This document shows, piece by piece, positions 1,690 to 14,890 of a stretch of DNA of 32,072 nt. Location: contig PAOI01000061.1 in the NCBI GenBank assembly GCA_002707985.1, positions 1-32,072 of the forward strand. Reading direction: 5' to 3'. The position numbers were made by a program, and so were the translations under genes. This DNA comes from Sphingomonas sp. (GTDB taxonomy: Bacteria; Pseudomonadota; Alphaproteobacteria; Sphingomonadales; Sphingomonadaceae). The notes under the pieces are model-generated. The model had not been told where the DNA came from. It saw only the letters and a program-made list of their open reading frames with translations, and searched no databases. Within the stretch, counting starts at the first letter, position 1. Each line of letters opens with the position of its first letter.

Positions 1690-1730
1690 CGAAACAGCTC
1701 CCCTGGACGGCGCGGTTGGCGCCACTTCCT

Positions 1731-1741
1731 TCTATAATAGA
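1731..1741. promoter_or_regulatory. Palindromic -10-like element, site A (TCTATAATAGA)
   Basis: TCTATAATAGA is a perfect 11-base palindrome in the gap between the FliL-like gene (-) and the small membrane protein gene (+). On the plus strand it holds TATAAT; on the minus strand it reads TATTAT. It could therefore serve as the -10 of both divergent transcripts, with leaders of roughly 20-40 bases. No good -35 hexamer is visible at 16-18 bases on either side. It is the least conserved member of a set of five similar elements in the flagellar region. Confidence 0.5.
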
Positions 1742-3835: not shown

Positions 3836-4741
3836 TCAGAGATAGCGGACGAGGCTGAGGTTCGACAGCTGGGAAAAGACCGAATAGCTGGCTTCCAGCA
3901 CTGCCTTTTGCTGGGCAAGGTCGATGGCCACCTGGCCCAGATCGGCATCTTCATTATTCTCGATCACGCCCTGCAGCACGAGCGCGCGCTGTTCGCCGCG
4001 CGAGACGAGCGATTCGAGTTGCGCCTGTTTGCGCCCATTTGCCGCATTGACGCTGTTCACATCGTCCAGCCCATTGGCAAGCTGTTCGGCAGCCTGTTGC
4101 AGAACCAGCTTCTGGTCGTCGGTCAACGCGGCACCGATCGCGCCGCCATCGGCAAGCGTACGAAACGCATCGAACAGCTTGCCACCCAGTTCGCTGGCAC
4201 CGATGCCATAGGTGACATCGACATTATCGTCGACACGCGCTTTTGCCATCACCTGGTCATCGGCAAAGGCATCGGCAGGATCCAGGCCGGCGAGATCAGA
4301 AAACTTCAGCGGCTTGAACGGCAAAGTGTCGGTTTGCGATCCCGCGAACAGCGGCTTGCCGCCTTCCGACGCGTTGAGCGAATTGCGGAACTGGTCGAAC
4401 GCGGCTTCGATGTCCGATTGCAGCCCCTGGGATTGACCGGTGCCGATCGCCGTCAGGATCAACGTGCGCAGCGACGAAGCCGATTCCTCCACGACTTCGA
4501 TATGCCCCTGATAGAGGTCCAGCGTCGTCCCGACGCGCTTTGCCACAACCGACGTTGCCTGTTGCTTGGCAAGCATCGAGTGCGTCGAAAGGTTGCGCAC
4601 CGCCTCCGTGCCCAGATCGGCGAAATCGCTGGCCTTTTTGCCGGTCGACAGCCGCACCTGAGTCAGCGCGAGCTTTTCCTGCGACTTGCCGATCGCATCG
4701 GCCATGGTGCGCTGAAGCGGAATGGTGGCAACGCGAGTCAT
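3836..4741 (-). CDS. flgL: Flagellar hook-filament junction protein FlgL
   Basis: A 301-residue protein of the flagellin/FlgL superfamily. The N-terminal helix (MTRVATIPLQRTMADAIGKSQEKLALTQVRLSTGKK) and the C-terminal helix (LAQQKAVLEASYSVFSQLSNLSLVRYL) have the heptad pattern of the two D0/D1 coils that pack together in the axial structure. The middle is a short variable domain. FlgL forms the second junction ring between hook and filament and is secreted through the flagellar export gate. Its position just after flgK (15-base gap), last in flgE-flgK-flgL, favours FlgL over flagellin. No flagellin gene is present in the window. Confidence 0.85.
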   Translation of the reverse strand: MTRVATIPLQRTMADAIGKSQEKLALTQVRLSTGKKASDFADLGTEAVRNLSTHSMLAKQQATSVVAKRVGTTLDLYQGHIEVVEESASSLRTLILTAIGTGQSQGLQSDIEAAFDQFRNSLNASEGGKPLFAGSQTDTLPFKPLKFSDLAGLDPADAFADDQVMAKARVDDNVDVTYGIGASELGGKLFDAFRTLADGGAIGAALTDDQKLVLQQAAEQLANGLDDVNSVNAANGRKQAQLESLVSRGEQRALVLQGVIENNEDADLGQVAIDLAQQKAVLEASYSVFSQLSNLSLVRYL

Positions 4742-4756
4742 ACTCTATCTCCCCGA

Positions 4757-6856
4757 TCAGCCGACCATCGCGATCAGCGTATCGTACATTTCGCTGGCGG
4801 TGCTCATCACGCGCGCGGACGCGGCATAGCTGTTCTGAAGCACCACCATCTGCGCCAGCTCCTCGTCGATATTGACGCCGGAAAAGCTGTCGCGGCGGCT
4901 TGTCGCGTCGGCGCGGCGCGCAGCGGCGTCCGCCAGCGAATCTTCTGCCTTCGAAGCGTGAAGCCCCGCTTTGCCCAGCAACAGGCTGGAAAAACGTTCC
5001 AGCGTTGCGCTGCCGTCCTTGCCGAAGTCGACCGGAATATCGAGCCGCTCGACAAAGGCATTGGCACCGCGGGTGTCGCCGGCGCCCAGCGCCTTCTCAC
5101 CCAATGCCGCGCTCGCCTGAAGCCGCGAAAGCGGCAGCTTGCCGGCACTGGTCGCCACGTCCGCCCGAACCGCCGCGTCGGAAAGGCCACTAGATGCGCC
5201 GGTCAGGCCCATCAGCGCCGAAAGCGTGCGCCCGGTGCCCCGCCTATCGGTGGAATCGACCGGAATGGTGATGGTCGAACCCGCAACCGACGCAGTCGCA
5301 TCGAACCGCAGCCGCCCCCGATCATCGAGCGCGAAACTGCCGAACTGCCCCATCGGGCTGGCGTTGAGATCGTTGACGATGTCGCCGAAACTGCCCCCGC
5401 TCGCCGTTGTGAGCGCATAGCTGGCAAGCTCACGCCCGCTTACGTCGCGCAGTACGAATTGAGTCGTCTGGCCGGCTGCGAAGCCATGCGGATCAGTGGC
5501 CGCGAACCCCGATGGGACCAGCGAGCTCGTATCGCTGCGCACCACATCGTTGAGACCGAAAAATTGTGCGAAACCCACACCCCCGCGATTGCTGGGATTG
5601 GTTTCGTCCTGCGCCACCACCACGCCGTTGCTGCTGTTGGCAGCAGTCAGGTTGAGCTTTCCGTCGACAAAGCTCGCGGTTGCCGCGCCGCCAAGGCCGG
5701 CGTTGATCCGGGCGACTACGGTATCGACGGTTGCGTTTGCCGGCAGTGCGGAAAAGTCGATGTCGGCCCGCGCAAGCAGCGTGCCGTTGGCGGCAGTGAC
5801 CGCGAATGTCGCGGAACCGGTGAAACCGGCCCTGTCGCTTCCGGCAAGCCCGGTCTGACGACCGTTCAGGCTGGCCGGAGCGGGCACGGTCGTGTTGGCA
5901 TTGGACACCGAATTCAACGCTTCGGCCATGCCGCCAAACAGCACACCGATCTGTTCGTTGAATTCGGGAAGCGCGCGGTCGCGCAAATCGATCAGGCCGC
6001 CCAGCTTGCCGCCAACGACCGCGCTGTCGAGCTTTTCCCCCGTCGCCGCGCCCAGATTGCCCTGGCCGTCGGCAAAACGCAGTTCGATCGCTGGATAGTT
6101 CGGCTGCGCGATCCCCGCGCCGCTGGAGGGATAGCTTAGCTGACGCAGCTTCTTGTCGAGCAGCGTGGCGCCATTGCCAGCTTCGATCGTTACGCGGCCA
6201 TCGGGCTGATCGCGCACATTGATCGAAACGAGCTGGCTGAGTTCCTCGATCGCGTTCATCCGCTGATCGGCGGGGCCGCTGGTGCTGCGGCCCAGGCCGG
6301 TCAGCTGCGAAACCGTGGTGTTGAGATCGTAAACCCGCTGCAGCAACCCGTTGATGCGATCGACCGTATAGCCGACTTCGCTTTCCACATCGCCGCGCAG
6401 ATTTTCCACGTCGCCGGTCAGCTGCTGCATCGATGACAGCGCGTCTTGGACATCGGCGGTGAATTCCGCGGCAGTCTGTTCAGATCCCATCGAGCCGGTC
6501 ATTGCCACGGCGGCGGAAGCGATCGCGTCCAGCCGCGCAGGCAGACCCGCTTCGCCGCCGGGCTCGCCCAGCAATTCCTGGAGACGGTCGAGATATTCGG
6601 CCTTGACCTCGGCCCGGCCATAATCGCCCGAACGACGATAGACTGTGGCTTCGAGGAACTGGTCGGCAACCCGGCTGGGTTCGCCAACGGCGACGCCGCT
6701 GACCCGCCCCGCGACGACCCGTGTCGTGAGGTTGGTCTTTTCGCGCGCATATCCGGCAACGTTGACGTTCGCGATATTGTTCGAGACCGAGCGCAACCCG
6801 GCCTGCGCGGCGGCAAGCCCCGATGTCGCGCTGTGGAGGATCTCGTTGATGGACAT
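4757..6856 (-). CDS. flgK: Flagellar hook-associated protein FlgK
   Basis: A 699-residue axial protein. The N-terminus carries the rod/hook signature (LHSATSGLAAAQAGLRSVSNNIANVNVAGYAREKT), and the C-terminus the matching coil (FSGVNIDEELAQMVVLQNSYAASARVMSTASEMYDTLIAMV). Both are typical of FlgK, the first hook-filament junction protein. The length is somewhat above the usual 450-650 residues; the excess is in the variable central part (about residues 300-560), which contains Gly/Ala/Ser-rich beta-domain sequence that would be surface exposed. It is followed 15 bases later by flgL and preceded by flgE, with a strong hairpin in the 68-base gap before it. Confidence 0.92.
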   Translation of the reverse strand: MSINEILHSATSGLAAAQAGLRSVSNNIANVNVAGYAREKTNLTTRVVAGRVSGVAVGEPSRVADQFLEATVYRRSGDYGRAEVKAEYLDRLQELLGEPGGEAGLPARLDAIASAAVAMTGSMGSEQTAAEFTADVQDALSSMQQLTGDVENLRGDVESEVGYTVDRINGLLQRVYDLNTTVSQLTGLGRSTSGPADQRMNAIEELSQLVSINVRDQPDGRVTIEAGNGATLLDKKLRQLSYPSSGAGIAQPNYPAIELRFADGQGNLGAATGEKLDSAVVGGKLGGLIDLRDRALPEFNEQIGVLFGGMAEALNSVSNANTTVPAPASLNGRQTGLAGSDRAGFTGSATFAVTAANGTLLARADIDFSALPANATVDTVVARINAGLGGAATASFVDGKLNLTAANSSNGVVVAQDETNPSNRGGVGFAQFFGLNDVVRSDTSSLVPSGFAATDPHGFAAGQTTQFVLRDVSGRELASYALTTASGGSFGDIVNDLNASPMGQFGSFALDDRGRLRFDATASVAGSTITIPVDSTDRRGTGRTLSALMGLTGASSGLSDAAVRADVATSAGKLPLSRLQASAALGEKALGAGDTRGANAFVERLDIPVDFGKDGSATLERFSSLLLGKAGLHASKAEDSLADAAARRADATSRRDSFSGVNIDEELAQMVVLQNSYAASARVMSTASEMYDTLIAMVG

Positions 6857-6924: not shown

Positions 6925-8226
6925 TTACCGCTTGAGGTCGCTGACTTCGCGCAGCATGTCGTCCACGGTCGTGATGATCTTGGACGATGCGCTATAGGCA
7001 CGCTGGAAGCGGATCATGTTGGTGAATTCGCCCGCCAGATCGACGTTCGAGGATTCGAGCGAATTGGCGGAGATGCTGCCTGCGCCGAGCGAACCCGGAG
7101 CATTGAGCGCGAATCCACCCGATTGCTGGCTGATCCCATAGGCATTGCCCGACAGGCGGGTAAGGCCGTCCGGATTCTGGAACGTGGCGATCGGCAACTG
7201 GAATACCGAGCGCGTGGAACCATCGTCGAAGATCGCGCTGACGATGCCGTCATCGGAAATTTCGATGGTGGAAAGATTGCCGAGCAATCCGCCATTCACC
7301 GACGAGGAGATCATCGCAGATTCGGTGCCGAACTGGGTAAGGCCGTTGATCCCGCCATTATCGCCGATCTGCAGTTCGATCGGCACCGATCCGGCGCCAT
7401 TGGTCCAGTTGATATTGAGATCATCGAACACCGCAGGCGACGAGTTTGCGCGATCCAGGCTGCCGTCCGGATTGAACATCAGCGTGCCGCTCGACAGCAG
7501 TCCGCCGGCTGCCGTCACATCGCTGGCGGGATCGGCATAGGTTTCCGACTGCCAGGTGTTCGGACCGGTCTTGAGATAGGACATGGTGATCCGGTGCGTC
7601 GAACCTTGCGAATCATACACGTCGAACGAGCGCGAAAATTCCGGCTGCACCGCTCCGGACGCCATGTCGCCTGCGGCATAGGCGCCGGTATAGGCAGTTG
7701 CCGAAGAGCTGAGATTGGTGCGCATCTGGATACGCGTGGACGGCTGCGCCGTACCCGTCAGATCGCTGATGCGGACCGGCTCGAGCGTCGCGAGATTGCC
7801 GGTATTGGTATAATTGCCTTCTGCATCGAGGCGCCAGCCATAGAGATAGAGACCGGCGGCGTTGCGCAGAAAGCCCTCATTGTCGGGACGGAAGGAACCG
7901 GCACGCGTGAATTCTACATCGCCATTGGCGTTGGGTTCGTTGCGCGTGACGAAAAAGCCCGCGCCTTCGATCGCGATATCGGTGCTGCTGGTCGAAGCCT
8001 GCAGCAGACCCTGTTTGGAAATCATCGCAATCGGGGCAACCGTCACGCCGCCGGCCGAATAGGAACTGGTGCTGCGTCCGTCGGTGACCATCGAACGGAA
8101 CTGGGCATCGGTGCCCTTGTAGCCGATGGTGTTGATATTGGTGATATTGTCGGCGACCGCGGCCATTGCATTGGCGTGGGCGCCAAGGCCGGAAACGCCG
8201 GCATAAAGTGCGGAATAGAGGCTCAA
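6925..8226 (-). CDS. flgE: Flagellar hook protein FlgE (TTG start)
   Basis: A 433-residue axial protein of the FlgE/FlgF/FlgG family. The N-terminus is SLYSALYAGVSGLGAHANAM followed by ADNITNINTIGYKGTDAQF, the flagellar rod/hook signature. The C-terminus is NVDLAGEFTNMIRFQRAYSASSKIITTVDDML. The length suits the hook subunit rather than FlgF or FlgG (about 250-265 residues). The start must be the TTG at 8226: it gives the conserved MSLYSAL beginning, and GGAG lies 8 bases upstream. It heads a minus-strand block with flgK and flgL. A CCTATAAT element (site B) lies 46-53 bases upstream of the start codon. The hook cap gene flgD is not in the window. Confidence 0.9.
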   Translation of the reverse strand: MSLYSALYAGVSGLGAHANAMAAVADNITNINTIGYKGTDAQFRSMVTDGRSTSSYSAGGVTVAPIAMISKQGLLQASTSSTDIAIEGAGFFVTRNEPNANGDVEFTRAGSFRPDNEGFLRNAAGLYLYGWRLDAEGNYTNTGNLATLEPVRISDLTGTAQPSTRIQMRTNLSSSATAYTGAYAAGDMASGAVQPEFSRSFDVYDSQGSTHRITMSYLKTGPNTWQSETYADPASDVTAAGGLLSSGTLMFNPDGSLDRANSSPAVFDDLNINWTNGAGSVPIELQIGDNGGINGLTQFGTESAMISSSVNGGLLGNLSTIEISDDGIVSAIFDDGSTRSVFQLPIATFQNPDGLTRLSGNAYGISQQSGGFALNAPGSLGAGSISANSLESSNVDLAGEFTNMIRFQRAYSASSKIITTVDDMLREVSDLKR

Positions 8227-8271: not shown

Positions 8272-8297
8272 ATTATAGGATGGCGGAGCCCGTCGGG
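8272..8297 (-). promoter_or_regulatory. Site B: CCCGAC-N12-CCTATAAT upstream of flgE
   Basis: Read on the minus strand, CCCGAC (8297-8292) is followed after exactly 12 bases by CCTATAATG (8279-8271). TATAAT is a consensus -10, which would place the transcript start near 8265 with a leader of about 40 bases. The same CCCGAC-N12-CCTATAATG arrangement occurs on the opposite strand at 8415-8440 in front of flbT, with the 12-base spacer ending in CAT in both. The CCCGAC box may be a non-canonical -35 or an activator site; that is inference. Confidence 0.55.
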
Positions 8298-8414
8298 GTT
8301 TGATCTGGCGATTTATGCGTAGCCCGGAGCGAAAATATTCGCCGCGCCGGTTCGCATCCTGGCACGCTTCTTCGTTGCGGCGTGGGCGCTAGGCAAATTT
8401 TGCCGGTGCACGAT

Positions 8415-8440
8415 CCCGACCCGCGCATTCATCCTATAAT
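8415..8440 (+). promoter_or_regulatory. Site C: CCCGAC-N12-CCTATAAT upstream of flbT
   Basis: CCCGAC (8415-8420), 12 bases, then CCTATAATG (8433-8441). The predicted start of transcription near 8447 gives a leader of about 25 bases before the flbT ATG. No TTGACA-like -35 is present at 16-18 bases. The arrangement mirrors site B in the same 245-base divergent gap, so flgE-flgK-flgL and flbT-fliI-fliJ-transglycosylase are likely co-regulated. Confidence 0.55.
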
Positions 8441-8471: not shown

Positions 8472-8885
8472 ATGCTTCGGATCACGCTCCGGGACGGCGA
8501 AAAGGCAATTATCAATGGCGCGGTCGTTCGCGCGATCGGTCGCACGCGGCTGCTCGTCGAAAACCGCGTTTCGATCCTGCGCGGCAGCGAAGTGATGCAG
8601 CCCGAGGATGCTACCACGCCCGCGCGCAAACTCTATTTCACCTGCATGCTGGCCTATGTGGATCTGGAACAGCGCGAAGCGCATAACGATGCGATCCTGA
8701 CCGATCTTCAGGCCCTGCTCGGCGCCATGCAGCAGCCGGCAGCCAAGGCGGCCTGCGTGCGTTTCGCCAACCACCTCGCCCGCAACGATTATTATCGTGC
8801 GCTGGCATCGGCGCGCGATCTGATCGCGCTCGAACAGACCGGACCGGCCGAACCCGAAGCCGGTGCGCAAGCCGAGGCGGCCTGA
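8472..8885 (+). CDS. flbT: Flagellin mRNA regulator FlbT
   Basis: A 137-residue protein with the FlbT family pattern: LRITLRDGEKAIINGAVVRA at the start, VLIV-type strands (RTRLLVENRVSILRGSEVM), and MQPEDATTPARKLYFTCMLAYVD, which matches the conserved MQPEE-TTPARRxYF segment. In Caulobacter FlbT binds the leader of flagellin mRNA and promotes its decay, coupling filament synthesis to hook completion. Its usual partner FlaF and the flagellin gene are absent from this window. The C-terminal 15 residues are a Glu/Ala-rich tail. It is the first gene of a + strand operon with fliI nine bases later. Confidence 0.88.
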   Translation: MLRITLRDGEKAIINGAVVRAIGRTRLLVENRVSILRGSEVMQPEDATTPARKLYFTCMLAYVDLEQREAHNDAILTDLQALLGAMQQPAAKAACVRFANHLARNDYYRALASARDLIALEQTGPAEPEAGAQAEAA

Positions 8886-8894
8886 GGAAGAGCC

Positions 8895-10238
8895 ATGCAG
8901 ACGCTCGCCAGCGCAGCCCGTGCGATCCGCGCCAAGGCGCCCGACCATCGGTTCGGGCGCGTGGTCGCGGTGCGCGGCGCGCTGATCGAAGTCGAAGGGC
9001 TGGCCGGCGCTACGCAGATCGGAAGCCGCGTTGCGATCCGTTCCAATAACGGCATCGTCGAAACCGAAGTCACTGCCCTCGATCGCGAGCTGGCGCTGTG
9101 CATGCCCTTCGCCGATCCGCAGGGCGTGGGGCTCGGAGCGCGCGCCGATCTTGCCGCCGGACAATTGAGCCTGCGGCCCTCGACCGGTTGGCTTGGTCGC
9201 ATGATCGACGGGCTGGGGCGGCCGGTGGACGGCAAGGGCGCACTACCGCTCGGCGCGGACCCGCATCTGATCAAGGCCCCGCCGCCCGCCGCCGCCAATC
9301 GCGCGCGCGTTGGCGGGCGCGTGGAAACGGGTGTCCGGGCGCTCGATATGTTCGCGCCGCTGTGCCAGGGCCAGCGGCTCGGCCTGTTCGCAGGTTCGGG
9401 CGTGGGCAAGTCGGTGCTGCTGTCGATGCTCGCGCGCTGGACGCAATGCGATGTCGCGGTGATCGGTCTGATCGGCGAACGCGGCCGCGAAGTGCAGGAA
9501 TTCGTCGAGGACGATCTGGGCGAACAGGGCCTTGCCCGCAGTGTCGTCGTCGTCGCGACGTCGGACGAACCCGCGCTGATGCGTCGCCAGGCCGCCTGGA
9601 CCACGCTCGCCGTCGCGGAGCATTTCCGCGATCAGGGGCTGAACGTCCTTTGCCTGATGGATTCGGTCACGCGCTTTGCCATGGCACAGCGCGAGATCGG
9701 ACTGGCTAGCGGCGAACCTCCTGCGACCAAGGGCTATCCGCCGACGGTATTTGCCGAACTGCCGCGGCTGCTCGAACGCGCCGGTCCCGGCCTGCCGGGT
9801 CAGGGCAGCATCACCGGGCTGTTCACGGTACTGGTCGATGGCGACGATCACAACGAACCGGTTGCCGACGCAGTGCGCGGCATTCTGGACGGGCATGTGG
9901 TGATGCGCCGTGCGATCGCCGAACGCGGCCGCTATCCGGCGATCGACCTGCTCAAATCGGTGTCGCGCACACTGCCCCATTGCCTCGACGCAACGCAGAA
10001 CGCTGCCCGCATTTCCGCGCGCAACCTGCTCTCCACCTATGCCGATATGGAGGAAATGGTGCGGCTCGGCGCGTATAAGCGCGGATCGAACCCCGAGGTC
10101 GATCGCGCGGTCGCGCTGGCGCCGCGGATCGAAGCGATGCTCAATCAGGGCAAGGAAGACCGCGGCAATTCGGGCGAAGCCTTTGCCGCGCTTGCCGCCA
10201 TCGTCGACGATGCGCTTGCAGAGGAGCCCGTCGCATGA
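8895..10238 (+). CDS. fliI: Flagellar export ATPase FliI
   Basis: A 447-residue ATPase of the F1-beta/T3SS family. An N-terminal beta barrel (about 15-85) leads into the nucleotide-binding domain with Walker A GSGVGKS (about residues 168-174), GERGREVQEFVEDDLGEQGL, the Walker B strand LNVLCLMDS (about 250), and GYPPTVFAELPRLLERAG. The C-terminal helical domain includes STYADMEEMVRLGAYKRGSNPEVDRAV, characteristic of FliI and its injectisome homologues. It energises substrate unloading at the flagellar export gate with FliH and FliJ. GAGGAAGAG precedes the ATG with good spacing. The fliI stop overlaps the fliJ start (ATGA). fliH is not adjacent here. Confidence 0.95.
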   Translation: MQTLASAARAIRAKAPDHRFGRVVAVRGALIEVEGLAGATQIGSRVAIRSNNGIVETEVTALDRELALCMPFADPQGVGLGARADLAAGQLSLRPSTGWLGRMIDGLGRPVDGKGALPLGADPHLIKAPPPAAANRARVGGRVETGVRALDMFAPLCQGQRLGLFAGSGVGKSVLLSMLARWTQCDVAVIGLIGERGREVQEFVEDDLGEQGLARSVVVVATSDEPALMRRQAAWTTLAVAEHFRDQGLNVLCLMDSVTRFAMAQREIGLASGEPPATKGYPPTVFAELPRLLERAGPGLPGQGSITGLFTVLVDGDDHNEPVADAVRGILDGHVVMRRAIAERGRYPAIDLLKSVSRTLPHCLDATQNAARISARNLLSTYADMEEMVRLGAYKRGSNPEVDRAVALAPRIEAMLNQGKEDRGNSGEAFAALAAIVDDALAEEPVA

Positions 10239-10663
10239 AGAGTTTCGACACCGCGCTTCGCGTTCAGCGTCGTGAACTCGATGCGCTGCGCATTTCGATC
10301 AGCGTTCAGATCGAGCAGGTCGATATGCTGACCGACGAACAGCGCGCGCATCTGGAGGCAGAGCGGCGCGAGCGTGCGGCGGCGTCCGAAATCTGGATGC
10401 CCACCGATGCCTGGGCCGCACGCATGCGCAGCGAGCGCGACCGTCTGGCACGCAGCGCCCGGGATGCGAGCGAGCGGCTGACGTTGCTGCGCAGTCGCGC
10501 GGCGGAAAGCTATGGCACCATGCGTGCCATCGAAGAGGCAGCCGCGCGCCGACAGGAAGAAATCGACCGCGAGCAATCCGCCGCAGAACAGGCGCAGGCC
10601 GATGATTTCGGCACTGCCCGGTTCCTCGCTGCGCGCGGTATCGAGCGGAGGCGGATGCAATGA
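10235..10663 (+). CDS. fliJ: FliJ-like export chaperone
   Basis: A 142-residue, almost fully alpha-helical and charged protein with long heptad stretches (LDALRISISVQIEQVDML, RSERDRLARSARDASERLTLLRS, EEAAARRQEEIDREQSAAEQ). FliJ is a small antiparallel coiled coil that fits into the FliI hexamer like the F1 gamma subunit. Sequence conservation in the family is low, so the call rests on coiled-coil shape, size and immediate position after fliI with a 4-base overlap. It also overlaps the next gene by 4 bases (ATGA). Confidence 0.75.
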   Translation: MKSFDTALRVQRRELDALRISISVQIEQVDMLTDEQRAHLEAERRERAAASEIWMPTDAWAARMRSERDRLARSARDASERLTLLRSRAAESYGTMRAIEEAAARRQEEIDREQSAAEQAQADDFGTARFLAARGIERRRMQ

Positions 10664-11736
10664 ACGGCCCCGAAACGCTTGCATCGCTGACGCCGTCGCG
10701 GCGCGCCGAGCTGATCTATCGCACCGCGCAATCGGAAATGTCGAACCGGCTGTGGCGCGCTGCGCTGGGCGACCCCGATAGCAGGGACCGCAGCGATCCG
10801 ACCGGCGGTGGTACCGGCAGCATCGGCGGCTTTCCGGTCGAAATGCTGATGCAGATGATGGGCGGCGGCAATAGCGCCGGGGCTCAGGCAGGCGGCGCGT
10901 GCGGATGCCAGCATCATTGCTGTTGCTGCCAGCATGAGGGCGGTACCTCCGCCATCGGCGCAACCGCAAACGCAGCGGGCCCCGACCCGGCGCTGCGGGC
11001 CGCCGCGCTGGCGCGCGGAAACGGCATTGCCGCCGTCGGCATCAGCGCGACCGGCGCCGCCGACACGCTTGCCCCCGCCCCGGCCGCGGGCCCGCTCGAC
11101 CTTGGCCCGAACGGCCGATACGCCAACACCATCGCAGCCGCTTCGGCCGCCACCGGCGTCCCGGCGCCTGCCATCGCTGCGATCGTCGACGCCGAATCGG
11201 CGCGCCATCCGGATGGAAGCTGGAATCCCCTTTCGCGCAATCCGCGTTCGAGCGCAGCCGGGCTTGGCCAGTTCCTCAGCGGCACCTGGCAGGATCTGGC
11301 GCAGACGCCGGGATGCTGGCTGAACGATGTCGCGAAACAGCGCGGCTGGATCGATCAGGCAGGACGCATCGTACCCCAGGCACGCGCCGAGCTATTGCAG
11401 CTGCGCTATGATCCCGGCGCGGCGATTCGCACCGTCGCCGATTTCGCGCGAATCAATCTCGACCGGCTCGAATCGTCGGGCTTCAACGTCCGCGCGGATT
11501 CAGAGACGGTGGCCAAGGCAGCCTATCTCACCCATCATCTGGGTCTGGGCGACGCCCGCCGTTTTCTGGGCAATGAAATCGGCACCGAACGCGCACGCTC
11601 GCTTCTGACCGCGCAGATCGGCCCCGCCGCAGCGCAGGAACGGATCACGCGTGCGGGCGGCGCCGTGCAAGCGCATCGCCAGTGGCTGCTCGGCTATATC
11701 GCGCAACGCGTCCAGCCGGACCGATTCGCATCGTAA
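10660..11736 (+). CDS. Flagellar-cluster lytic transglycosylase with a Cys/His cluster
   Basis: A 358-residue protein. The N-terminal part (1-75) is polar with a Met-rich, Gly-rich stretch. Residues 81-92 read CGCQHHCCCCQH, six Cys and three His in twelve positions. A Gly/Ala/Pro linker (93-160) follows. The C-terminal half (about 165-275) is a lysozyme-like SLT domain: AIAAIVDAESARHPDGSWNP, whose Glu is the likely catalytic acid, then SSAAGLGQFLSGTW. It presumably cuts peptidoglycan to let the rod or hook through, the job of the FlgJ muramidase in other bacteria. No classical signal peptide is visible, so export through the flagellar gate is possible. It overlaps fliJ by 4 bases and ends the flbT operon. 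No FlgJ rod-cap domain is recognised. Confidence 0.7.
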   Translation: MNGPETLASLTPSRRAELIYRTAQSEMSNRLWRAALGDPDSRDRSDPTGGGTGSIGGFPVEMLMQMMGGGNSAGAQAGGACGCQHHCCCCQHEGGTSAIGATANAAGPDPALRAAALARGNGIAAVGISATGAADTLAPAPAAGPLDLGPNGRYANTIAAASAATGVPAPAIAAIVDAESARHPDGSWNPLSRNPRSSAAGLGQFLSGTWQDLAQTPGCWLNDVAKQRGWIDQAGRIVPQARAELLQLRYDPGAAIRTVADFARINLDRLESSGFNVRADSETVAKAAYLTHHLGLGDARRFLGNEIGTERARSLLTAQIGPAAAQERITRAGGAVQAHRQWLLGYIAQRVQPDRFAS

Positions 11737-11792
11737 ATTTTTCGGGAACCATGTCCGTAGTGCCACGGATGCGGTCGAGCCGGCAAAATTAT

Positions 11793-11800
11793 CCTATAAT
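11793..11800 (+). promoter_or_regulatory. Site D: CCTATAAT upstream of the sigma factor gene
   Basis: CCTATAAT inside an A/T-rich island (AAAATTAT before, TTTTTAA after). If it is the -10, the start near 11807 gives a leader of about 225 bases before the sigma-factor ATG at 12031. The base run 12 upstream is not CCCGAC, unlike sites B and C. No TTGACA-like -35 is seen. Confidence 0.45.
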
Positions 11801-11920
11801 TTTTAACAGAGGCCGGAAAAATTCCCGCCGCGGCTGCGACGCCAATCGCGCAGGCCGCCGATAAAGTTGCCAAAAACCGCCATTCTCTGTATCAAACGCC
11901 GCTCCTAGGTGTGACTACTC

Positions 11921-11938
11921 ATATGTAGGATTACATAT
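11921..11938. repeat. Perfect inverted repeat ATATGTA-N4-TACATAT
   Basis: Two 7-base arms with a 4-base centre (GGAT), 93 bases before the sigma-factor start and inside its predicted leader or promoter. A symmetrical 18-base site this AT-rich is unusual in such GC-rich DNA and is typical of a dimeric repressor operator. As RNA it could form only a weak hairpin. A binding partner is not known; the tandem-HTH protein encoded at 13754 is an obvious candidate by proximity. Confidence 0.5.
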
Positions 11939-11950
11939 AGGACTGGTTAA

Positions 11951-11979
11951 CTCCTTTTAGGAGGATCACGCCAATCTCC
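11951..11979 (+). promoter_or_regulatory. Shine-Dalgarno-like hairpin in the sigma-factor leader
   Basis: CTCCT-TTT-AGGAG forms a tight hairpin whose right arm (AGGAGG) is a perfect Shine-Dalgarno sequence, but no start codon stands at a usable distance after it. A second CTCCT at 11975-11979 could pair with the same AGGAGG. Alternative pairings of one AGGAGG with two CTCCT copies look like a leader switch or a ribosome standby site. The likely true Shine-Dalgarno sequence (AGGGGG) is at 12019-12024. Confidence 0.35.
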
Positions 11980-12030
11980 TGAGTGTGAACAGCGTCCAGG
12001 GGGCCGCTGACAACAATCAGGGGGACAGAG

Positions 12031-13080
12031 ATGTCCAAGGTCACGATCGCACTTGAAGCCGCTGTTGCTTCCGCACTTGAAAACATGCCGAAGGACGGCG
12101 AGCAGACCCGGCGCCAGCGCGCCAATGTCGACCGCGCCTATGCCGAGATCCTGAAGCTGATCGCACCGCGTATCCGCCACTTCATCCGCCAGTACGGGCT
12201 CAATGCCCATTGGGAAGATGCCGAACAATGCTGTGCCATCGCCGTGCATCGTGCGATCCAGGCCTATGACCCTGCCAAGGCCCAGTTCACCACCTTCATC
12301 AACTGGCAGATCCGCGGCGAACTGCAGAGCCTGCGCTTCCGCCTGATGACCGATCAGCGCCCGTCGGCAAAGAAGGTCGAAGCGACCACCGTTTCGCTCA
12401 GCGCCCTCGCTTCGAGCGCCGATGGCGAGGAAATGTCGCCCGAAACGCTGATCGAAGACGAATTCGCCCAGGAACGCACCGAAGCGGCCGCGTCGGATTA
12501 TCTCGCCGACAATGCCATCGAAGCGCTGGTCGACGCCTATGTCGATCATCTCCGCAAGGTGGGGATCGAACAGCTGCATCGTCGCCCGCGTCCGAAGCGC
12601 CGCGAACGCCTGCCGAGCGACGCACCGCGCCTGCGCGTCGCAACCCACGGGATCGACCCGGAAGAGCTCGAAAAGCTGGAAGCCAAGCTCGAACGCGATC
12701 GCGAGATCGTCCTGCGCCGCGTATTCGACGCCGCCACGCTCGACGATCTGTCGAACGACACCGGCGTGACCAAGGAACGCGTCCGCCAGATCACCAAGCG
12801 CGCCACCAAGGCGATGGCCGATCTTGCCGCCGCCGATCCGCGCTTCGCCGTGATGGCCGAATATAAGGCTGCGGCCGCCGAGCGGGCTCGCCCGCGCCGC
12901 GCCGCCGCCGCGCCCGCTCCCTCGCTGCTGCCGCGTGCCGATGACGCGCACAACCGCCTGACGCGGGTGCGTGCGATCGATCCGGCTTCGCTGCCCGCCG
13001 GCGGCGAAGGGGCGACCGAAAAGACACGCGCCGGCAACGCCCAGCTGGTCGTGAATATGAGCTCGGCGTCCCGCCATTGA
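12031..13080 (+). CDS. Unassigned sigma-70-family sigma factor in the flagellar cluster
   Basis: A 349-residue protein. Region 2 is at about residues 35-105 (IAPRIRHFIRQYGLNAHWEDAEQ, HRAIQAYDPAKAQFTTFINWQIRGELQSLR). Region 4 is at about 218-265, with the helix-turn-helix TLDDLSNDTGVTKERVRQIT. No region 1 or clear region 3 is seen. The linker of about 110 residues contains acidic (DGEEMSPETLIEDEFAQE) and basic (RRPRPKRRERL) patches, and an Ala/Pro/Arg-rich tail covers about 285-349. The FTTFINWQIRG..LR segment faintly recalls FliA, but the whole is neither a standard FliA (about 240 residues) nor RpoH (about 290-300). It is transcribed alone after a gap of 294 bases and is followed by a hairpin terminator. 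A flagellar promoter specificity is inferred from location. Confidence 0.8.
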   Translation: MSKVTIALEAAVASALENMPKDGEQTRRQRANVDRAYAEILKLIAPRIRHFIRQYGLNAHWEDAEQCCAIAVHRAIQAYDPAKAQFTTFINWQIRGELQSLRFRLMTDQRPSAKKVEATTVSLSALASSADGEEMSPETLIEDEFAQERTEAAASDYLADNAIEALVDAYVDHLRKVGIEQLHRRPRPKRRERLPSDAPRLRVATHGIDPEELEKLEAKLERDREIVLRRVFDAATLDDLSNDTGVTKERVRQITKRATKAMADLAAADPRFAVMAEYKAAAAERARPRRAAAAPAPSLLPRADDAHNRLTRVRAIDPASLPAGGEGATEKTRAGNAQLVVNMSSASRH

Positions 13081-13090
13081 TCCCCGGGGT

Positions 13091-13120
13091 ACGCGGCCTT
13101 GCCATCAGGGCCGCGTATTT
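13091..13120 (+). terminator. Hairpin terminator after the sigma factor gene
   Basis: ACGCGGCC (13091-13098) and GGCCGCGT (13109-13116) form a perfect 8-base GC-rich stem around a 10-base loop, followed by ATTTCTT. It begins 11 bases after the sigma-factor stop. The T-run is short, so it is a moderate intrinsic terminator. Confidence 0.6.
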
Positions 13121-13123
13121 CTT

Positions 13124-13131
13124 CCTATAAT
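13124..13131 (+). promoter_or_regulatory. Site E: CCTATAAT upstream of the orphan gene at 13161
   Basis: CCTATAAT lies directly after the hairpin terminator and about 30 bases before the GTG start at 13161. It is framed by TTCC and GGAA, and more widely by TATTTC and GAAATA, giving local dyad symmetry around the -10. There is no CCCGAC at the position seen in sites B and C. Confidence 0.5.
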
Positions 13132-13160
13132 GGAAATACCCCCCCCGAGGATTCTCTATC

Positions 13161-13679
13161 GTGACCGTTCGCATGATCGCTCCCGCCGCCCCGACGCTCG
13201 AATCATCCGGGGCATTTCGCCCCAACCGGCGGCTCTCCAGCCTCGCCCGGCGCGTGACGCACAGCGCATCGGCGCTGCTCGCGGCCGATCGGCGTATGCT
13301 GCTCGGCGTCCGTTCCGAAGGCGACAGGATTTCGCTCGGCTGGTGGAATCCGCAATTCGAAATCGTGGCGCGGCTCGATGCCTCGCGCAGCGACTTTTGC
13401 CCGGTCGGCACTGCAGAAGGTGCCGTGCAGCGCAGCTCAGCGGTGCTGCTTGACTGGCTGATCGGTCGCTGGCCGCCTGGCGCCGCGCCAGCGCGATTCG
13501 GCATCGTCACCGACGGTATCGGTGTCGCCTTCGCCCCGGAACGACCCGACCCGTTCCTTCCCGGCTGGTTCGCCGACATCGCCAGCGGGCGACATGTCCT
13601 GCGCGAGATCCGCCCGCTTTCGCCGACCGGCTCCGCCGCATTGCTGAGCTATCAGGATCAGGGGATCGTCCTCCACTAG
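13161..13679 (+). CDS. Orphan protein of the flagellar regulatory island
   Basis: A 172-residue soluble protein from GTG 13161 (an in-frame ATG lies at 13173). GAGG stands 10 bases before the GTG. No signal peptide or membrane segment is visible. The middle alternates hydrophobic strands and short helices (ADRRMLLGVRSEGDRISLGWWNPQFEIVARL, SAVLLDWLIGRWPPG, ARFGIVTDGIGVAFAP), suggesting a compact alpha/beta fold. No family was recognised. It stands alone between the sigma-factor terminator and the tandem-HTH gene, under its own CCTATAAT element. An accessory role for the neighbouring sigma factor or regulator, such as anti-sigma or co-regulator, is speculation. Confidence 0.65.
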   Translation: MTVRMIAPAAPTLESSGAFRPNRRLSSLARRVTHSASALLAADRRMLLGVRSEGDRISLGWWNPQFEIVARLDASRSDFCPVGTAEGAVQRSSAVLLDWLIGRWPPGAAPARFGIVTDGIGVAFAPERPDPFLPGWFADIASGRHVLREIRPLSPTGSAALLSYQDQGIVLH

Positions 13680-13753: not shown

Positions 13754-14890
13754 ATGAGCAGCATCGCCGGTGTGGCTGGCGTGGGAAATGGTGCCGCAAC
13801 GACGGTTGCGGCAACAGTTCCGGTCGATCTGTATCGGGGAATTGTGTTCCCCAACCATATGCGTGAACTGCGCCGGGCGCATGGCTATGCCAAGCTGCTC
13901 CCGCTCGCGGCTGCGATCCCCGACATCCCCTATATCCGCCTGTCGAAAATCGAACGCGGCGAAGTCGTCGCGCGGCCCGAGGAATTGCGGCATATCGCCG
14001 CCGCGCTGGGAATCGCGCCCGAAACCCTGCTGATCGATCCCGACGCGCCCGGTTTCGACATTGCACGATGGGCCGAACCGTTTCGCGACGGCAGCGACAT
14101 CGACATTGCCGAGGAACGATTCGCGGTCCTGCTGGGCGCTGCGGTGCGGGCATTGCGCGCTAACGACGCGGCGCTGACGATCGCCGCCATCGAACGCGAT
14201 CATGGCCTGCCGCCGGTCAATCTTTCCCGGCTGGAAAATGCACAAAAGACCTTTGCCCGCTGGAACGGCTCGGTGCGCCAGTCGCTCTATTCGCTGTTCG
14301 GCGTTTCCGGCGAAGCGGCGCTGCGCGCACTGATCGAGGACCGGCATCGCAGCGGCGCGCTCGATGCCTTTCTTTCCAGCGTGTCCGATCCCGCCGAACG
14401 CCTCGCGCGCAGCCGCGACCGCATCGCAGAACTGCGCGCAGCATTGGCGAGCGGACAGCCCGGAACCGCCAGGCCCGGCCGCGCTGCACCGGTGCACGCT
14501 ACGGTCCCCGCCCCGACCAATGTCCCGGCAGCCACCATTCCGGTCTATTCGACCGGCCTGCCCGGCGGGCTGATCGCAGCCGAAGCGACGTCGGAACAGG
14601 TCGCCGCGCCGGAAAATGTTAGCCCGCAAGCATTTGCGGTGCGCACGTCGCGCGCCACGCTGGGCCCGGGATTGCCGGTTCAGACCTTGCTGATCGCCGA
14701 TCCGGCACGGTCGCCCAGTCCCGGCGGCCTTGTCCTGTTGCGCGAAGAACAGGGATGGCGGCTGCTTGCCATCGAATCGAACCGCAGCGGCGGCATGACC
14801 GGATTTTCGCTGCATCCGGAATATGAAGTCCCGCTCGACGACTGCGATCCGGCTCGCCTTGCGCCGGTGGTTACCGCAACCTTTCCATAA
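13754..14890 (+). CDS. Tandem XRE-type regulator with a degenerate S24-like C-terminal domain
   Basis: A 378-residue protein. Residues about 32-95 form an XRE-like helix-turn-helix (MRELRRAHGYAKLLPLAAAI, YIRLSKIERGE, EELRHIAAALGI). Residues about 123-184 repeat the pattern more loosely (VRALRANDAALTIAAIERDH, VNLSRLENAQK, SVRQSLYSLFGV), so the N-terminal half looks like an internal duplication. A Pro/Ala-rich linker (about 235-290) leads to a C-terminal part (about 300-378). Its strands (TLLIADPARSPSPGGLVLLR, GWRLLAIESN, and a closing Asp-rich strand) recall the LexA/phage-repressor S24 fold, but the usual Gly-Asp-Ser-Met nucleophile segment is not seen. GAGGGGAT gives a good ribosome site. 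Probably a DNA-binding regulator of this cluster; its targets are unknown. Confidence 0.75.
   Translation: MSSIAGVAGVGNGAATTVAATVPVDLYRGIVFPNHMRELRRAHGYAKLLPLAAAIPDIPYIRLSKIERGEVVARPEELRHIAAALGIAPETLLIDPDAPGFDIARWAEPFRDGSDIDIAEERFAVLLGAAVRALRANDAALTIAAIERDHGLPPVNLSRLENAQKTFARWNGSVRQSLYSLFGVSGEAALRALIEDRHRSGALDAFLSSVSDPAERLARSRDRIAELRAALASGQPGTARPGRAAPVHATVPAPTNVPAATIPVYSTGLPGGLIAAEATSEQVAAPENVSPQAFAVRTSRATLGPGLPVQTLLIADPARSPSPGGLVLLREEQGWRLLAIESNRSGGMTGFSLHPEYEVPLDDCDPARLAPVVTATFP

Follow-up and report, generated by a model that had tools for sequence, protein, structure and literature searches.

Which sigma factor transcribes a flagellar island that carries, among its own genes, one for a sigma-like protein? 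The window, i.e. the whole 32,072-nt stretch of Sphingomonas sp. DNA analysed here, holds such a gene, and a sequence-only reading had proposed that it encodes a dedicated flagellar sigma factor beyond the standard models. According to the accessible portion of a 2025 paper, Alphaproteobacteria have no known flagellum-specific sigma factor (PMC12826043). In Sphingomonas sp. WG, the accessible portion of the published account describes flagellar clusters lacking fliA and assumes a Caulobacter-like CtrA/sigma-54/FlbD scheme (PMC8921679), and a 2026 preprint on plant-associated Sphingomonas describes two differently regulated flagella, the word "sigma" being absent from its accessible portion (PMC13015449). 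No description of the gene was found among open-licence papers.

A flagellar island next to a second flagellar system

The sigma gene was indeed located among flagellar genes, as first read, with family matches for flgL, flgK, flgE, flbT and fliI in the window (Table 1). Two further genes bear tentative names: the one following fliI is presumably fliJ-like, judging by its position, and the next one we take to be a flagellar muramidase. Gene starts and intergenic status throughout come from an in-house codon-usage gene caller. One gene, presumably fliM, is split between contig C22, where it comes last, and contig C61, the window, where it comes first; the two contigs therefore form one island. 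This island contains motA, a chemoreceptor gene, fliN, fliG, fliL, flgH, genes for flagellin, FlaF and FlbD, flgL, flgK, flgE, flbT and fliI. The nearest named genome is that of Sphingosinithalassobacter portus (98% identical). The sequence-only reading had asked whether the genome also holds a standard fliA. It does: a further flagellar system is encoded on contig C2, where it has a FliI, a flagellin and a FliA (207 bits) of its own, so that the sigma factor of the window would serve one of two flagella.

The gene at 13754-14890, after the sigma gene, has a helix-turn-helix-like start, matches no family and is kept at many flagellar loci. The edge of the island (L128:3944-7053) encodes two candidates for its input signal, namely a PAS histidine kinase and a response regulator of the FixJ-like kind.

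Table 1 Features of the window, numbered from its first base
Feature	Coordinates	Strand	Remarks
flgL	3836..4741	-	family match
flgK	4757..6856	-	family match
flgE (hook)	6925..8226	-	family match
flbT	8472..8885	+	family match
fliI, clade 3 flagellar export ATPase	8895..10238	+	620 bits
fliJ-like gene	10235..10663	+	no family match
conserved gene	10660..11736	+	weak NCBIfam match only
sigma factor gene, 349 aa	12031..13080	+	ORF with ATG start; sigma-70-family domain matches
region 2, residues 36-112	12136..12366	+	88.3% mean pairwise identity (15 flagellar-locus rows, alignment A1)
linker replacing region 3, residues 113-215	12367..12675	+	one predicted helix, 146-184
region 4, residues 216-264	12676..12822	+	61.2% identity (15 flagellar-locus rows)
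disordered tail (model), residues 286-349	12886..13077	+	28% identity (15 flagellar-locus rows)
conserved gene without assigned family	13173..13679	+	TCCTATAAT 50 nt upstream
variant TTCTATAAT	1730..1738	+	between divergent genes at 1285(-) and 1791(+)
TCCTATAAT	8272..8280	-	54 nt upstream of flgE
dyad GGCAAATTTTGCC	8392..8404		upstream of flbT; candidate FlbD site
TCCTATAAT	8432..8440	+	40 nt upstream of flbT
TCCTATAAT	11792..11800	+	239 nt upstream of sigma gene
TCCTATAAT	13123..13131	+	50 nt upstream of gene 13173-13679

The 349-residue protein combines a conserved region 2 with a decaying region 4

Pfam scans of the 349-residue protein identified Sigma70_r4 with 30.0 bits (cut-off 24.1); region 2 scored 22.1 bits in the protein scan, slightly below its cut-off of 24, and 24.9 bits, above it, in the genome scan. 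The families for regions 1 and 3 gave no match at E-values up to 1. In agreement with the structure model, these scans bore out the architecture proposed from the sequence, with regions 2 and 4 present and regions 1 and 3 absent. Regions 2 and 4, together with sigma folds in the PDB, place the protein in the sigma-70 family, and binding to core RNA polymerase and initiation are predicted for it.

The model, built from an alignment of 32 sequences (mean pLDDT 79, pTM 0.44), had pLDDT values mostly above 90 for residues 1-108 and low values for about 109-145. Residues 146-184 formed a single long helix predicted with confidence, residues 210-286 comprised region 4 and an additional helix, and residues 286-349 were disordered. 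The linker, first described as some 110 residues long, exists and spans about 103 residues, but it is only partly disordered because of the confident helix; the tail, described as 65 residues long, has 64. Mean pairwise identity in the linker was 53% among 15 flagellar-locus homologues, and orthologues start with MSK(I/T)T or similar.

The region 2 model (residues 1-106) superposed on the -10-reading domain of SigC (Z 10.6, 2.1 Å over 87 residues) and on that of sigma-E (Z 10.3, 2.9 Å over 94), and the surface of this region was near-invariant across homologues. The Pfam model for region 2 matched 30 of the 32 homologues and that for region 4 only 14. A conserved region 2 next to a decaying region 4 fits a factor selected for reading the -10 element, in which the -35 arm would no longer be needed. 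A fold search among viral proteins returned phage sigma factors only.

The protein lies outside the FliA, RpoH and ECF families

None of the NCBIfam sigma families was matched above its cut-off. An assignment to FliA was rejected since TIGR02479 gave 29.2 bits against a cut-off of 189.6, the true FliA of the same genome scoring 207.4 bits. RpoH was likewise rejected (TIGR02392, 29.5 bits against 323.1, with a match to region 4 only), a separate RpoH being present in the genome, as was an ECF factor (TIGR02937, 37.9 bits against 42.9). The phylogeny that had been proposed as a check gave the same answer: a region 2 tree of 20 sequences, of low resolution with about 79 columns, separated the sigma family from the RpoD, RpoH, FliA and ECF factors of this genome. 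The poor fit to FliA, RpoH and typical ECF factors noted at the outset was thus confirmed by both approaches. A distant relative (L085) branched between the sigma family and the other sigma factors (0.85).

FliA (sigma-28) is also a sigma-70-family factor dedicated to the flagellum. It has region 3 and is associated with late-class promoters. In the protein described here, by contrast, the place of region 3 is taken by a low-confidence stretch and one helix, and the word TCCTATAAT (see below) precedes early structural genes rather than those of a late class. Sites of the FliA type, which we take to be TAAA-N15-GCCGATAA, were absent from nine islands with the sigma gene, and the real FliA goes with the genome's other flagellum. 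Similarly, EcfG and other ECF factors have regions 2 and 4 without 1 and 3, but lack the long linker, the tail and the RVRQI-type region 4 found here. The gene next to the sigma gene (13173-13679) had no match in the family versions scanned; it could be a new anti-sigma gene, the kind of neighbour expected for an ECF factor. According to the accessible portion of its description, RpoE6 of Azospirillum brasilense is an alphaproteobacterial sigma factor adjoining flagellar genes; it differs in being an ECF factor with an anti-sigma factor, and its control extends to a minor flagellin and metabolism rather than to an entire island (PMC12826043).

The nearest working parallel, by analogy and not by family membership, may be T4 gp55. 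The accessible portion of the source describes gp55 and gp33 as a split sigma factor, in which promoters are chosen via region 2 and the -10 element without contacts by sigma domain 4 (PMC2988020). Unlike in T4, no gp33 or sliding clamp partner was seen here, and an eroding region 4 is present.

An extended -10 word marks the intergenic regions of the island

The most enriched 9-mer in six islands was TCCTATAAT, seen 29 times against 0.09 expected under an order-2 Markov model; all 29 copies were intergenic and none occurred in 323 kb of background strand. Our genome holds 13 copies, 11 of them in the island and the other two inside unrelated genes, and there was none on the contig with fliA and the other flagellar system, a search confined to this genome. 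The 11 island copies precede flgE, flbT, the sigma gene, gene 13173, fliG, fliL, motA, fliN, a chemoreceptor gene, a fliF orthologue and an alginate-export-like gene; ten are intergenic, and the remaining copy runs into the beginning of an ORF that was probably called too long. In nine islands (408 kb), 42 of 43 copies were intergenic, in regions that are 9.9% intergenic. Across 31 named loci (503 kb) the figure was 40 of 40, and six permuted words occurred 0 to 2 times. No exact copy was found in 12 of these 31 loci, five of which are paralogue loci. Upstream of flbT, CTATAA was found in all 22 loci shown and TCCTATAA in 18; TCCTACAAT is the usual form upstream of flgE, and flagellin genes have the variant TTCYCAGAAT or similar 100-105 nt upstream.

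Alignment of the 43 sites revealed high information only from -3 to +8, corresponding to (TCA)TCCTATAAT. The position of a -35 hexamer was flat, with at most 0.28 bits. Some of the sites contain the dyad GGCAAAATTTTGCC, which gives rise to an A/T block some 35 nt upstream.

The sigma gene had been credited with its own promoter and its own terminator. No TTGACA/TATAAT-type promoter was found in 11600-13400, but a copy of TCCTATAAT does lie upstream, and across 8 named loci such a site is retained at distances of 208-239 nt; its presence suggests autoregulation. Downstream, a strong hairpin lies within 13078-13124 (-26.7 kcal/mol, z -4.67), but its U-run is weak and a consensus scanner called no terminator on the plus strand.

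The word followed the sigma gene into another family: G334, a genome of an independent family whose sigma factor is 60% identical, had 14 exact sites and no copy of the reversed word. G091 combines the island with a sigma factor of 49% identity, but 40 kb of it contained variants only. No copy was found in 80 kb of G047, a genome with a clade 3 island lacking the sigma factor, nor anywhere in G228. Counts over whole genomes discriminate poorly, since 230 of 297 genomes carry the word at least once. Among the 20 genomes with sigma factor and island, the word totalled 135 copies and its reversed control 73, with more copies than control in 16 of them, and in many genomes without the sigma factor the reversed word was as common or commoner (G063: 24 copies against 51 reversed). 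The case for TCCTATAAT thus rests on the position of its copies, not on their number. Literature searches for the 9-mer gave only unrelated matches among the matches listed.

TATAAT is also the housekeeping -10 element, so RpoD could act at these sites together with another factor. TCCTATAAT would then be an RpoD -10, with an island regulator binding to its TCC arm or to the palindrome TCCTATWATAGGA, and the sigma-like protein would serve a few other promoters. About half of the island copies do extend into the palindrome (CTATAATAG, 14, against 29 for TCCTATAAT). At the 43 sites, however, conservation covers the left TCC but not the right arm, the 9-mer being followed by A in 16 and by G in 15; the sites lack a -35 element, and the word tracks the sigma factor in the independent family of G334. 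We consider this explanation unlikely, though the best placed of the alternatives.

FlbD has lost the motifs for sigma-54 activation

FlbD is a sigma-54 activator. The Caulobacter sigma-54/FlbD hierarchy goes with an alpha-type island of this kind, in which FlbD, FlbT and FlaF occur. In contrast to that hierarchy, FlbD here lacks the sigma-54 contact loop and the Walker B aspartate, and strict sigma-54 sites are absent: strict sites for sigma-54, CtrA and FliA numbered zero in the nine islands (408 kb), and a weight-matrix scan for sigma-54 yielded four weak intergenic matches. All ten full-length FlbDs from islands with the sigma gene have lost the threonine of the GAFTGA loop (GAFPGA in six; GDFPGA, GAFAAA and GAFEGA; one loop deleted) and have the Walker B aspartate replaced by arginine. 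At loci L163-L170 and L174 and in G334, the ATPase motifs of FlbD are dead and its DNA-binding end is conserved. Only the DNA-binding (HTH) end is left in the islands of G066, G155 and G099, and the search of seven other genomes with the sigma gene revealed no full-length FlbD.

Both residues, threonine and aspartate, were kept in 33 of the 33 FlbDs examined from genomes without full-length sigma factor. These came from G047, G051 and G035 and from the 30 best-scoring of 167 genomes of the class, a choice that biases the 30 towards intact proteins; 26 of them have GAFTGA and four GSFTGA. G051 does give a weak region 4 match to the sigma profile. The class sets for the sigma and the FlbD searches, 337 genomes each, were taken as identical. 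Among 18 other sigma-54 activators, the loop threonine was missing in four and the Walker B acid in none. RpoN was present in 13 of 13 genomes tested.

G047 looks like the ancestral state: its clade 3 FliI is accompanied by a normal FlbD, and a sigma-54 site precedes the operon holding flgE by 35 nt. The weight matrix gave six intergenic matches in this genome; one of the best four precedes the flgE operon and three (two sites) precede non-flagellar genes, which leaves a single flagellar site behind the sigma-54 contrast. The full pattern of sigma factor, exact sites and damaged FlbD is repeated in G334.

The sigma factor co-occurs with the clade 3 export ATPase

We surveyed 297 sphingomonad genomes, defining full-length sigma factors by an E-value below 1e-100. 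At 1e-5 the profile matched 48 genomes: 22 with a full-length protein, 22 with a shorter or more distant one, one with a remote relative (G033) and three with weak region 4 matches. Full-length sigma factors were found in 20 of the 22 genomes whose clade 3 FliI exceeded the cut-off and in two of the 275 others (Fisher p 9e-27, not corrected for descent and hence overstated, most of the compared genomes sharing descent). The exceptions are G047 and G035, with clade 3 FliI alone, and G228 and G034, with the sigma factor alone. For four of the 20 (G099, G122, G167 and G091), the FliA search gave E-values of only about 1e-30 to 1e-31, the RpoH/RpoD background of FliA-less genomes, which indicates that they use the island without FliA. 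In the wider class, the sigma factor was present in two of 337 genomes, the present one and G334.

Three further cases were noted. A third match in the class (G390) was rejected as an ordinary ECF-like gene. In G228 and G034, where the island has been lost, the sigma gene and its upstream neighbour stay side by side. A pseudogene was considered for G034 and rejected, as the reading frame runs uninterrupted for 289 aa, region 4 included, and the in-frame stop falls in the tail.

A dedicated sigma factor would have replaced sigma-54 in the island

We think it likely that the protein serves as a sigma factor specifically for the alpha-type flagellum and chemotaxis island of sphingomonads, that it reads an extended -10 element and that it has replaced sigma-54 there. 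The near-invariant region 2 would read (TCA)TCCTATAAT, and core enzyme carrying the sigma factor would open the DNA at TCCTATAAT. A -35 element would not be needed, region 4 giving at most weak or unspecific contacts. The factor would drive flgE, flbT-fliI, fliL-fliM, fliF, fliG, motA and the chemoreceptor genes, and probably its own gene. We infer the direction of the switch: sigma-54 would have been displaced in the island by the new factor, and FlbD, having lost the sigma-54 contact loop and the ATPase aspartate and kept its DNA-binding domain, would have become a plain DNA-binding protein. Acting at the dyad GGCAAAATTTTGCC, which spacing would place near -50, such a non-ATPase FlbD may assist. 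The claim of a dedicated flagellar factor beyond the standard models is thus favoured by comparative evidence, namely the co-occurrence, the island-confined word and the decay of FlbD, but is qualified by relatives that are not flagellar.

Alternatively, the protein could be a modulator that binds core RNA polymerase via region 2 and aids or redirects another sigma factor, reading no promoter itself. Region 4 is degenerate in many homologues, and the short homologues, found apart from flagella, consist of little beyond region 2. This is quite improbable, since region 2 retains the length and fold of -10-reading domains as well as its near-invariant surface, and the protein is tracked by a word that resembles a -10 element extended by TCC. 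That an ordinary ECF or group 3 factor with another regulon sits in the island by chance is the least credible reading: non-flagellar paralogues exist and G228 and G034 keep the gene without the island, but no known family was matched over cut-off, the region 2 tree, small as it is, gave a separate branch, and the association holds in 20 of 22 genomes.

Returning to a dedicated sigma factor, we are evenly divided over a more specific course of events, in which it is becoming a -10-only factor, with region 4 being lost, and in which it first displaced sigma-54, the loss of the FlbD ATPase, and of the whole AAA+ domain in several lineages, coming afterwards. If true, this would be a complete natural sigma replacement with living intermediates, a case of one sigma class replacing another across a large regulon. 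The sigma factor and TCCTATAAT would form a simple switch for one of two flagella, whose division of labour would become testable through a single gene.

Relatives of the sigma factor outside flagella

Five Sphingomonas genomes hold a second sigma copy outside the flagellar genes (L021, L023, L024, L026 and L036 at 8001). Compared with the flagellar copy of the same genome, DNA identity was 88.6-98.9% for residues 1-185 and 65.9-70.0% for the rest; in seven comparisons of orthologues the same two parts gave 88.4-93.9% and 79.0-92.7%, a far smaller gap. At least four of the five second copies look like products of gene conversion in the promoter-reading half.

Shorter relatives were found in 22 genomes, mostly in a fixed non-flagellar setting. 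Together with the paralogues, they show a wider family that extends beyond flagella. The short relatives at L074-L083 and L086-L090 (164-272 aa as called) come from sphingomonads without clade 3 FliI. Most share one neighbourhood with a large gene and a gene pair that we take to be efflux-pump-like and etfAB-like, respectively. Their region 4 is reduced to a remnant such as KEQKRQVARRVLRHMAK. In two genomes without flagellar FliI, the short relative is immediately preceded by an FlbT-like gene (L079:5449-5910 and L080:5465-5917), which suggests an old link between FlbT and the sigma factor beyond flagella.

In G033 (L155-L157), a 25%-identical relative (gene 841532-842446) lies inside another flagellar island. 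The promoters of this island look like GGCTATAAC, at few sites, possibly a shifted -10.
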